Translations under genes and position numbers: made by a program
Notes under the pieces: generated by a model
Told to the model about the DNA's origin: nothing
What the model saw: the letters and a program-made list of their open reading frames with translations, nothing else
Database searches by the model: none
Source of the DNA: a virus
DNA length: 24,255 bases
IMG/VR virus record: IMGVR_UViG_3300025647_000267
Span: 1 to 24,255 of that record
Reading direction: 5' to 3' (one strand)
In this document: one piece after another, positions 4,012 to 12,188 of the stretch
Numbering within the stretch: position 1 is the first letter of the stretch
Layout of the letters: each line of letters begins with the position of its first letter

Positions 4012-4731
4012 ATGCCTTTACCAAAGATTGCGACACCAACATATGAATTGGAAATTCCATCAACAAAAAAGAAGATAAAGTATCGACCATTTCTTGTTAA
4101 AGAAGAAAAAGTTCTTATCTTAGCGATGGAAAGTAATGATACAAAGCAAATTGCAGAATCTGTTAAAAATGTAATTTCTGATTGTATAATTACGAGAGGA
4201 ATAAAAATAGATCAACTATCAACATTTGATATTGAATATATTTTCTTAAATATTCGTGGGAAATCTGTTGGTGAAGATGTAGATATCTTGATAACTTGCC
4301 CAGATGATGGTCAAACACAAGTTCCTTTAAGTATTAACCTAGATGATATTGAGGTTAAAATAGATAATAATCATAGCAGAGATATTAAACTTGATGATAA
4401 TTTAATTCTTCGTATGAAGTATCCTTCTCTTGATCAATTTATTAAAAATAATTTTTCAGATCAGGATAATATGAGTGTTGATGATACTTTTGATGTTATT
4501 GCATCTTGCATTGAACAAATTTATAATGAAGAGGAGTCATGGTCTGCCAAAGATTCCACAAAAAAAGAACTCAATGAGTTTCTAGAACAACTGACAACAA
4601 ATCAGTTTAAAGAAATTGAGAATTTTTTCAACACTATGCCAAAACTTTCTCATACTGTGACAGTTAAAAATCCAAATACTGGAATTGAAAGTGACGTTAC
4701 TTTGGAAGGATTAACATCTTTTTTCGCCTAA
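4012..4731 (+). CDS. 26: gp26 baseplate hub assembly protein / tape-measure chaperone
   Basis: 239 aa, near T4 gp26 (208 aa) and of the T4 gp26/gp51 baseplate-protein family. The opening MPLPKIATPTYELEIPST followed by KIKYRPFLVKEEKVLILAME and the later FDIEYIFLNIRGKSVGE with the CPDDG motif is typical. These proteins act in hub assembly and are thought to chaperone the tape measure. The gene lies immediately before a small reading frame in the -1 phase and the tape-measure-like genes, exactly where lambda-type tail chaperones sit. The last sense codons TCT TTT TTC GCC contain a T TTT TTC slippery heptamer just before the stop, so a second, longer product (4012-4904) is likely. The gp26 call is confident; the frameshift is inferred. 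Confidence 0.82.
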   Translation: MPLPKIATPTYELEIPSTKKKIKYRPFLVKEEKVLILAMESNDTKQIAESVKNVISDCIITRGIKIDQLSTFDIEYIFLNIRGKSVGEDVDILITCPDDGQTQVPLSINLDDIEVKIDNNHSRDIKLDDNLILRMKYPSLDQFIKNNFSDQDNMSVDDTFDVIASCIEQIYNEEESWSAKDSTKKELNEFLEQLTTNQFKEIENFFNTMPKLSHTVTVKNPNTGIESDVTLEGLTSFFA

Positions 4732-4758
4732 GCATGGCTCATGAAAGTCTTGAGTCAT
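4719..4758 (+). promoter_or_regulatory. Candidate programmed -1 ribosomal frameshift signal
   Basis: A slippery heptamer T TTT TTC (4719-4725) is in exact X XXY YYZ phase with the gp26 frame. It is followed by an 8-nt spacer and then an 8-bp stem: ATGGCTCA (4734-4741) with TGAGTCAT (4751-4758), one G-U pair and a 9-nt loop. The zero-frame stop TAA is at 4729-4731. The -1 frame stays open from the slip site to 4904. The stem also buries the only ATG of the small downstream frame. Confidence 0.75.
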
Positions 4759-4904
4759 ACTATAAAACAAACTTTGCCTTAATTCAGCATCATAAATATT
4801 CATTGACTGAGCTAGAAAACATGATTCCCTGGGAAAGGGAAATTTATATCGGTCTTCTTCAGCAGTATATTGAGGAAGAAAATTTAAAGAACCAGAATGG
4901 CTAG
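4734..4904 (+). CDS. T-domain-like small frame, probably the -1 frameshift extension of gp26
   Basis: 56 residues from its ATG, starting MAHESLESYYKTNFALIQHHKYSL; as the frameshift tail it would add Arg-Leu-Ser plus these 56 residues to 238 residues of gp26 (297 aa in all). It contains YSLTELENMIPWEREIYIGLL followed by QQYIEEE. A segment of the form PWEREIY...LL...EE is characteristic of the T part of pre-tape-measure chaperones (lambda GT and its myophage counterparts), which recruit the tape measure. No Shine-Dalgarno is placed before the ATG, and the ATG is in the stem described above, which argues for expression by frameshift rather than independent initiation. It overlaps the next gene by 8 nt. 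It is too small to assign by itself; context supports the role. Confidence 0.75.
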   Translation: MAHESLESYYKTNFALIQHHKYSLTELENMIPWEREIYIGLLQQYIEEENLKNQNG

Positions 4905-6135
4905 ATCTTTTTTAAATCTTGGAGGATTATTTGGTAGTCGTAGAGAAGCGGCTGCGTCTTCTACTATAAGACCACAACAAACAATATTTGATAGAAATCA
5001 GAATATATTAATTAAAGATAATGAGAAATCAATTTCATATCTTCAGGAACAAATTCAGTCATTGCAACTGCAAATAGTTTCTATTAATGCAGGATTAAAT
5101 CAAATATCAAATCTTATTGTTAGAGATGGTAATCAAGATAGAGCTCAACTTTTAGAGGATCAGGAAAGGCAGAGAAGATTAAATCAATCAAAATTAAGAG
5201 AAGGTCAAGAAAATCAACTTGAACAAAAGATAAGAAGTGCAATCGCTGCTCCTTTGGAAACAGTTCAAAAAAATATGAAAGGATTGTTCTCTAGAATTAG
5301 TAGAGCAATTGGATATCTTTTTATGGGATGGTTGACAGACGCTGCATTCAGTTTTATTGATGAAGCATCTCAAAGAAACATGACTTTGGGAGATTTATTA
5401 AAAGAAAAAATTAAAGATAATCTTGACTCAATTTTAAATATTACGAGGTTGACATTTAATGGATTTGGTCGAATTGCAACAAGATTGTTAAGAGCTCCAC
5501 TTTCAGTTGCCGGACTTGGGGTTAGAGTATTTACTTCACCTTTTAGATTAGCATCTAAAATTTTTAGACCTGTTTTAAGACCTCTTAGTAAAGTTCCACT
5601 TTTATCAAAGTTGTTTAGAGGAGCAGGAAAGGTACCAAACGTAATTGCAAATATTACAAAAAAAATAATTCCAGGTATTAATTTGGGATTGGGATCTGCA
5701 GAAATATATGAAAGACTTAAAAATAAAGACATCTTTGGAGCAGCAGTAACTGGTGCATCTCTTTTACCTGGTTTCGGACTTCCGTTTATAGGATTGAATC
5801 TTATGAGAGACTTTGGATTGATTGATACTACTTACTTTGATGAAACGTTTTCTAAACTTGCAGAAAAAATTAATATTCCAGAAGTAAGTAAAGATATTAA
5901 GATTCCAAATCTTGGAGAGTATTTTAAAAACTTTGATGTTAAAAAAACATTTATTGATATACCAGAATTATCCAGTCTAGAACCAGAAGTTTCTGTCATA
6001 AAATCCAGTTCAAATCAAGTTGCTCCTCAAGAAGAAAAATTGGTAGTGAATGAAATACCAATTTATCCGTCATCAAATTCTGATAATTATCATACAGTTA
6101 TGACTCAAAGATTGTTTAATCTATTAGCAACATAA
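4897..6135 (+). CDS. Tape-measure-like tail protein (first of two)
   Basis: 412 aa. Residues about 38-115 are a predicted long coiled coil (LQEQIQSLQLQIVSINAGL, later Gln/Arg/Glu-rich QERQRRLNQSKLREG), followed near 130-165 by an amphipathic hydrophobic segment (ISRAIGYLFMGWLTDAAF), a basic region with many RP/PL motifs (220-250), and a hydrophobic stretch near 285-305 (AAVTGASLLPGFGLPFIGL). This layout, and its place directly after the gp26 chaperone and T-like frame, are those of a tape measure (T4 gp29 role: sets tail length and holds the hub). It is shorter than T4 gp29 (590 aa), so the function may be shared with the next gene, with which it has a common central motif and a similar C-terminus. 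There is no lytic domain. The start overlaps the upstream frame. Confidence 0.6.
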   Translation: MARSFLNLGGLFGSRREAAASSTIRPQQTIFDRNQNILIKDNEKSISYLQEQIQSLQLQIVSINAGLNQISNLIVRDGNQDRAQLLEDQERQRRLNQSKLREGQENQLEQKIRSAIAAPLETVQKNMKGLFSRISRAIGYLFMGWLTDAAFSFIDEASQRNMTLGDLLKEKIKDNLDSILNITRLTFNGFGRIATRLLRAPLSVAGLGVRVFTSPFRLASKIFRPVLRPLSKVPLLSKLFRGAGKVPNVIANITKKIIPGINLGLGSAEIYERLKNKDIFGAAVTGASLLPGFGLPFIGLNLMRDFGLIDTTYFDETFSKLAEKINIPEVSKDIKIPNLGEYFKNFDVKKTFIDIPELSSLEPEVSVIKSSSNQVAPQEEKLVVNEIPIYPSSNSDNYHTVMTQRLFNLLAT

Positions 6136-6136
6136 C

Positions 6137-7630
6137 ATGGCAATTCCATTAAGTAGTATTCAAAGAAATAAGAATAAATCTAAAAAAATATTTCTGAACA
6201 CAACTCAATCAATTACTAATATTAAAAATTCTTTAGTTAAAAATACTAGAGAAAAGAAGATAATATTTAATCGTTCAAATATCTTAAAAAGAAGAGGAGT
6301 TGAATCTCAGAAAAGAAGATATCAGGAAACTATGTTAGAATTGCCAAATATTTCTAATTCTGCAGCAAGAGGAAGGATTATTTCAAAGGCATCTGCCAAT
6401 TCTACTAAGGGATTTTTTGAAAGAATTATTGAATCTATTGCATATCTTGGTGCTGGTTGGATGTTGGATAATCTTCCCATGTGGTTGCAGGCAGGGGAAA
6501 ATTTCATAAAAAGAGTAGAGGCATTTACTAGCAAAAGTTCACAATTCTTTAATGATATAAAAAATATTTTTGTTGATATTGGAGGCATTATCAACGCTGG
6601 TCGAAAAAATTTACTTGAATTTGATTTTAATGATCAAACTGGGAGAATGGAAGCAGCAATTGAGTCATTTCAAACTGATGTAAATATTATGATAAAACGT
6701 ATTCAAGATTCCTTAAGAAGTCAAGAAGAAGAACAACAACAACCAGAAACACCAGAAACACCAGAAACACCGGAAGCACCGGAAGCACCGAAATTGCCAG
6801 GAGAATCAAGTAGTGAGCAAGAAGAAACTCCACAAACTCCACAAACTACATCTGGCGAATATACTGAAGAGGATTATCGTATAGCAGCAGGGATTTACAC
6901 TGAAGGTGGAGAAGGTCAATCTGCTGTCGATGTAATGCAAGTTTTAGCTAATCGAGTTCAATCTCCTAGATATCCTAATAATTATACTGATGTTTTAACT
7001 GCAGGAAGTGGTGGTAATAATGTCGCATTTGCTGGTATATGGCATAGACCTGGCGGCCCGAAAGAATTTAGAAAAATTAAAACTCTTAAAGATGCTGCAA
7101 GATGGGCAGGAACTTCTGAGAGCGTTATCTTACGTTATTTAAAAGATCTATCTAATCAAGGTTATATTAATAATTCTAGAAAATTTGTTAAAGGTGCTTT
7201 TGAGTTTAGAGCAGCACCAGGATATTATTTAAAAAACGGTTTAGTTCCTGGAGAAATGGGCCCAGATGGTAGATTTTATGGATCTTCATGGAGAGGTGGT
7301 CCTGGTGATAATCAATTTCTTATGGATCCTGTTCGTGATAAAAACAGAATCAATCCACAAAATAAAGCAGCACCAATTAAACCTATAGGAAAATCATCAG
7401 CATCTTCTAATCTTTCTACCAGTTCATTGATAAATCCAGTCTCTAGCGGACAGCAACCATCTACACTTTTAGCATCTACAAGAAGAAGACAAAAAATAGT
7501 TGTTATAGATGATTCTCAGACAACAATTGCATCTAATTATAGTAATGGTGGTGGAGATACAATTATTATCGAAGATGGCTTAAATAGTTATAATAAAGCA
7601 TTTATTCTTACCCAGCTAGCGTATACATAA
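6137..7630 (+). CDS. Tape-measure-like tail protein with SleB-type cell-wall hydrolase domain
   Basis: 497 aa. A basic N-terminus (1-70) precedes a segment FFERIIESIAYLGAGWMLDNL that parallels RISRAIGYLFMGWLTDAAF in the preceding protein. Then come a helical part, a Pro/Glu linker (PETPETPETPEAPEAP, about 203-218) and, at about 242-350, a domain starting YRIAAGIYTEGGEGQSAVDV with MQVLANRVQSPRYP. This resembles the SleB/Hydrolase_2 family pattern of a catalytic Glu in EGGEGQ followed by VxQVLxNRV. The likely role is local peptidoglycan cleavage during DNA injection, replacing the lysozyme found in T4 gp5. One base separates it from the upstream stop, and its TAA overlaps the next ATG. The lytic domain call is good; the tape-measure role is inferred. 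Confidence 0.68.
   Translation: MAIPLSSIQRNKNKSKKIFLNTTQSITNIKNSLVKNTREKKIIFNRSNILKRRGVESQKRRYQETMLELPNISNSAARGRIISKASANSTKGFFERIIESIAYLGAGWMLDNLPMWLQAGENFIKRVEAFTSKSSQFFNDIKNIFVDIGGIINAGRKNLLEFDFNDQTGRMEAAIESFQTDVNIMIKRIQDSLRSQEEEQQQPETPETPETPEAPEAPKLPGESSSEQEETPQTPQTTSGEYTEEDYRIAAGIYTEGGEGQSAVDVMQVLANRVQSPRYPNNYTDVLTAGSGGNNVAFAGIWHRPGGPKEFRKIKTLKDAARWAGTSESVILRYLKDLSNQGYINNSRKFVKGAFEFRAAPGYYLKNGLVPGEMGPDGRFYGSSWRGGPGDNQFLMDPVRDKNRINPQNKAAPIKPIGKSSASSNLSTSSLINPVSSGQQPSTLLASTRRRQKIVVIDDSQTTIASNYSNGGGDTIIIEDGLNSYNKAFILTQLAYT
6743..6787 (+). repeat. Five 9-bp tandem repeats coding a Pro-Glu linker
   Basis: Three identical CCAGAAACA units are followed by two CCGGAAGCA units, encoding (PET)3(PEA)2 between the tail part and the lytic domain of the preceding entry. 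Repeat-number changes would stay in frame and alter only linker length. Confidence 0.85.
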
Positions 7631-12017: not shown

Positions 12018-12188
12018 ATGAAAGTCTACACTGTGGATCACTGGCAAGAACATTGGGACGAACTGATCTCCAGAGTTGAAGGTGGAGAGCATATAGGGAT
12101 CTCAAACGGAGATAATATAGCAGTCATGATACCAGCAGACGACGAATTATTACGAATATACACCGAGAATAATAACGAAGCATCATAA
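12018..12188 (+). CDS. Orphan Phd/YefM-like antitoxin
   Basis: 56 aa: MKVYTVDHWQEHWDELISRV, then EGGEHIGISNGDNIAVMIPADDE. The pattern of a start strand, an 'xHWDELISRVEGGEHIGIS' helix-strand, and 'N-IAVMIP' matches the N-terminal half of Phd/YefM antitoxins (typically ...LxELLdrVeaGeeviIt..g.pvAvlvp). That half is the DNA-binding and dimerisation part. The protein lacks a longer toxin-binding tail, and no RelE, Doc or similar toxin gene is next to it: downstream is a tRNA array, upstream an unrelated small gene. It could repress a promoter or neutralise a host toxin. The fold assignment is moderately sure, the function inferred. Confidence 0.6.
   Translation: MKVYTVDHWQEHWDELISRVEGGEHIGISNGDNIAVMIPADDELLRIYTENNNEAS

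Follow-up and report, generated by a model that had tools for sequence, protein, structure and literature searches.

We propose that the gp26 gene of this virus gives rise to a short and a long form of a tail assembly chaperone by programmed -1 frameshifting, and that the small frame known as gp51 is the C-terminal extension of the long form, a reading that we hold, on comparative evidence, to be very probably correct. The window (i.e., the whole stretch of DNA analyzed, a 24,255-base IMG/VR fragment) contains the following features:

4012–4731, plus strand: gp26 (T4_baseplate family), the zero-frame product of 239 aa and proposed short form of the tail assembly chaperone (TAC-N).
4705–4709, plus strand: Shine-Dalgarno (SD)-like GAAGG, a candidate internal stimulator 9 nt upstream of the slip site.
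4719–4725, plus strand: slippery heptamer T TTT TTC, in phase with gp26 (last base C, T or G across all 244 loci compared).
4725–4904, plus strand: -1 frame T-like extension of 59 codons and a stop, matching phrog_634 (E 7.1e-27) and the C-terminal end of phrog_150.
4729–4731, plus strand: zero-frame stop codon TAA of gp26, with 3 bases between it and the heptamer.
4734–4736, plus strand: first ATG of the -1 frame, inside the stem and without an SD sequence; the usual annotated start of gp51.
4734–4758, plus strand: putative stimulatory stem-loop with arms at 4734–4741 and 4751–4758, separated from the heptamer by an 8-nt spacer.

The zero-frame protein encoded by 4012–4731 is, by its profile matches, a member of the T4 gp26 family (Pfam PF12322, E 4.2e-75; phrog_150, E 3.7e-82). 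Its AlphaFold2 model (pLDDT 86.7) resembles predicted baseplate hub proteins from other phages, and in a Foldseek comparison with the PDB the HK97 tail assembly chaperone 2OB9 had the top probability among the matches listed (0.72, but with an E-value of 1.1–1.4); with E about 1, an HK97-chaperone-like fold of the modelled protein is only suggestive. No match to gp26 was found by profile search among PDB sequences. The gene upstream of gp26 encodes a tail tube protein (phrog_45, E 4.4e-35). On the other side, the initial annotation had placed the cassette ahead of the tape measure gene, which would make the ORF that follows (4897–6135) the putative tape measure; this ORF matches a P-SSM2 gene in the same position, and similarity was detectable neither to T4 gp29 nor to the downstream phiM12 ORF that was tested. 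Further along the window, the ORF at 6137–7630 weakly matches PF07486 (cell wall hydrolase/SleB-like; E 0.00068, short of the curated cut-off), and a small ORF at 12018–12188 (MKVYTVDHWQEHWDELISRVEGG...) looks by eye like a Phd/YefM-type antitoxin.

Inspection at the level of single bases places the heptamer T TTT TTC in the X XXY YYZ phase, gp26 codons 237–238 being TTT TTC, just as the initial annotation had read it, and the zero-frame stop that it described just past the heptamer is the TAA that follows after the three intervening bases. In this A+T-rich window T TTT TTC is by itself common, occurring 16 times with 18.0 expected, so the case for a functional site depends on the comparison between relatives. 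A second in-phase T TTT TTC lies within gp26 at 4623–4629 (in IENFFNTMP). This copy is not conserved as the 3' site is, T TTT TTN being found at its position in 2 of 98 relatives.

The -1 frame is open from 4725 to 4901 and ends with the stop codon TAG at 4902–4904, which bears out both the 180 nt of open frame and the conceptual 297-aa gp26-T fusion proposed earlier (junction ...SFF/RLSMAHE). The small frame belongs to phrog_634, whose cyanophage members (e.g., in P-SSM2) bear the annotation gp51, 'baseplate hub assembly catalyst'. Its further match, to the C-terminal end of phrog_150, suggests that some gp26 relatives have the T-like domain in the same chain; one continuous gp26-T-like ORF, annotated as hypothetical, is found in Campylobacter phage F379 (L086:856–1596). 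For the small frame no Pfam or NCBIfam model scored above its cut-off, Rfam gave no match at the slip site, and the 24,255-base fragment holds no second copy of the T-like domain.

To compare the regions downstream of gp26, viral contigs were scanned four times, using different gp26 queries, and annotated phage records were added, which yielded 247 loci with gp26 and its stop codon, the T-like domain being found in 244 of them. At all 244 loci the domain lies in the -1 frame of gp26 and is preceded by an in-phase T TTT TTN (the last base is C in 197, T in 46 and G in 1), so that heptamer, phase and -1 frame are kept in every relative with a T domain, with the caveat that the relatives share ancestry and the locus counts are non-independent observations. 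Removal of sequences at least 90% alike left a non-redundant set of 110, with 92 TTTTTTC, 17 TTTTTTT and 1 TTTTTTG, and the synonymous positions of the slip site do not vary across this set; of the 124 other Phe-Phe pairs in these genes, taken as an internal control, just 3 form T TTT TT. Judged from these alignments, the conservation of heptamer, phase and downstream domain exceeds chance by far. This slip site is also present in P-SSM2, phiM12, Vibrio PC-Liy1, pf16, syn9 and P-HM1, as well as in Aeromonas phages 65, PX29 and ZPAH1, Stenotrophomonas phage BUCT608 and Ochrobactrum phage OC. The identity of the gp26 stop codon varies among relatives, and so does its distance from the heptamer (3 nt in 182 of the 244 loci, 24 nt in 35, 0 nt in 19 and 6–9 nt in 8). 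The 35 loci, a subgroup among L102–L255 (e.g., L198, L228 and L250), have a gp26 that is 7 codons longer, with the two frames overlapping for 24 nt past the heptamer and the heptamer 31 nt before the later gp26 stop. In Vibrio phage Kuja (Ackermannviridae; L273:880–1823) a similar -1 frame is present and C CTT TTT replaces T TTT TTY; this replacement counts against the frameshift reading, and C CTT TTT is possibly a degenerate slip site.

The same comparison bears on whether gp51 could be a small protein in its own right, translated by termination-reinitiation from the ATG at 4734, 2 nt past the gp26 stop, which we consider quite improbable. An ATG close after the stop is found in the window and in 43 of its 45 close relatives, and databases do annotate gp51 as a separate gene. 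However, the first 12 codons of the -1 frame lack an ATG in 51 of the 110 relatives and lack any ATG, GTG or TTG in 38, and an SD-like sequence precedes just one of the 59 such ATGs, leaving 58 without a ribosome-binding site of this kind. Reinitiation would also leave the invariant, synonymously fixed T TTT TTN unexplained, is difficult to square with the 35 loci in which the gp26 stop lies 24 nt past the heptamer, and does not account for the conserved residues (FFRxxLxH) that precede several annotated gp51 starts. The initial annotation had argued that the stem hides the only ATG of the frame and that no SD is present; the ATG at 4734 is indeed inside the stem and has no SD before it, but it is not the only one, as a second ATG occurs further in (the Met of ENMIPWERE). 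Within the clade of the window, where 43 of 45 sequences retain the 4734 ATG, coupled re-initiation may contribute as a minor extra route. Annotation of the small frame is uneven: in syn9 and S-RIM8 the annotated gp51 start lies ~50 nt past the gp26 stop, inside the conserved domain, S-CAM1 has no gp51 annotation at the -1 frame, and Aeromonas phage 65 has a full -1 T-like frame in a region where the annotation consists of one 26-aa hypothetical ORF.

Frameshifting would probably be aided by elements on both sides of the heptamer. Downstream, the 8-nt spacer (4726–4733) and the 8-bp stem with one G-U pair that had been described initially were found again, the predicted arms being ATGGCTCA (4734–4741) and TGAGTCAT (4751–4758) around a 9-nt loop. 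Covariation was computed on 45 non-redundant close relatives, in which the stem is kept: 94% of cells are paired, compared with 27–45% after sliding the partner, and there is one compensated pair (alignment positions 21/35, window positions 4739/4753), which is U-A in 28 sequences, G-C in 15 and unpaired in 1. At this pair the wobble base of an Ala codon in the first arm changes along with a Glu/Ala codon in the second. Covariation is seen at this one pair only, four pairs are invariant and the sequences are related, so the support that it lends to the stem is good but not overwhelming. Distant relatives have other predicted stems (e.g., GCCCTC/GAGGGC in P-HM1 and S-RIM8), and in some relatives (loci L191 and L091) the predicted downstream structure is weak or absent. 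Across the 110 sequences, the mean folding energy of the 48 nt past the heptamer was -10.1 kcal/mol, versus -5.4 kcal/mol in control windows (median z -2.1).

Upstream of the heptamer there is an SD-like element that the initial annotation did not describe. An SD-like AGG ends 9–10 nt 5' of the heptamer in 97 of the 110 relatives, and at this site the Glu codon is GAG in 55 and GAA in 18, compared with 759 GAG and 1787 GAA elsewhere in the gp26 genes. By analogy with known systems, this sequence probably stimulates slippage. In E. coli dnaX the heptamer is A AAA AAG and the longer product is the zero-frame one. The gp26 cassette resembles dnaX in its combination of an upstream SD-like sequence, a slippery heptamer and a downstream stem, and the spacing of its SD-like sequence resembles that of the dnaX stimulator, whereas the gene, the heptamer and the frame of the longer product are different. 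Transcriptional slippage, in which RNA polymerase would slip on the run of six or seven T that makes up the site and some mRNAs, one base shorter or longer, would encode the fusion, is highly improbable, since on established knowledge six T are short for such slippage, which would require neither a conserved codon phase nor a downstream stem and would leave the SD-like element without a role.

Comparison with T4 provides a further line of evidence for programmed frameshifting. In hhalign searches T4 gp51 aligned to the conceptual gp26-T fusion over 243 columns that span the junction (prob 99.5, E 5.6e-23), whereas T4 gp26 aligned to the gp26 part only (prob 99.8, E 1e-27), its end falling at the slip site. 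T4 gp26 is also homologous to the N-terminal part of gp51 (prob 99.3, E 2.6e-20). With gp51 corresponding to the whole fusion and gp26 to the part before the slip, T4 has both forms as separate genes, which accounts for the separate gp26 and gp51 of T4 that the initial annotation had pointed out; the T4 clade has two genes and no frameshift where the window has a putative frameshift cassette. In an unrooted tree with long branches, T4-type gp26 and gp51 each cluster, and jointly they stand opposite all frameshift-type proteins (98/94). This topology would fit a duplication in the T4 lineage, a direction that we infer.

Taken with the conservation among relatives and the absence of start codons in many of them, the T4 gp51 homology supports the original proposal that gp26 is a G/GT-type chaperone with a -1 frameshift into a T-like extension. 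A fraction of ribosomes would reach the 3' end of gp26 with tRNA-Phe in the P and A sites on TTT TTC and would then slip back by one base within the heptamer, so that the tRNAs pair with TTT TTT, with the stem 8 nt downstream and probably the SD-like sequence 9 nt upstream as aids. The gp26 stop would thereby be bypassed and 59 residues, the so-called gp51, would be added to give a long form of 297 aa. If the two forms act as in lambda G/GT, the short one would be expected in excess and would coat the tape measure, and the T-like extension would recruit tail tube subunits.

The likeness to lambda gpG/gpGT lies in a small chaperone gene 3' of the tail tube gene, a -1 slip near its 3' end and a short T-like extension encoded in an open -1 frame. 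The slip sequence of lambda is G GGA AAG, in contrast to the T TTT TTY of the window family. The frameshift of lambda gpG/gpGT, and of tail assembly chaperones in general, was reportedly described by Levin in 1993 and by Xu, Hendrix and Duda in 2004.

Chaperone genes of T4-like phages were identified by Vladimirov, Gautam & Davidson 2022 (Virology 566:9), to judge from the parts of the literature that cite it. The paper on phage Adele (PMC12846349) refers to this work for slippery poly-T signals within T4-like TAC-N genes, and the PRFect paper (PMC10885494) cites it for some T4-like phages having two copies, one short and one a longer fusion, in place of frameshifting. As cited in these papers, the T4-like tail assembly chaperones involve the same genes and the same short/long logic as the cassette in the window. 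The statement in the initial annotation that no frameshift had been described for gp26 in T4-type phages is therefore probably wrong, given the poly-T signals cited in PMC12846349; as far as these citations go, frameshifting in T4-like chaperone genes is already published and the novelty of our observation is limited. Sullivan et al. 2010 (PMC3037559) reported that the gp51 of cyanophages and of marine vibriophage lacks ~200 N-terminal residues and is similar only to the C-terminus of T4 gp51, a shortness that programmed frameshifting would explain.

We consider it rather likely that the arrangement of an SD-like sequence, T TTT TTY and a lineage-variable stem occurs broadly among T4-type phages (cyanophages and phages of Sinorhizobium, Rhizobium, Pseudomonas, Stenotrophomonas, Vibrio and Aeromonas) and may be ancestral to them, with the T4/RB49 clade being the exception that exchanged frameshifting for two duplicated genes, and that many annotated gp51 are not genes in their own right. 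On the frameshift reading itself, the gp51 'baseplate hub assembly catalyst' of hundreds of cyanophage records would change from a separate gene to a C-terminal extension of gp26, which would explain the very small size of gp51, or its lack of a start codon or of any annotation, in many genomes. The T4 hub-assembly puzzle, that is, the roles of gp26 and gp51, would become testable with the logic of lambda G/GT.
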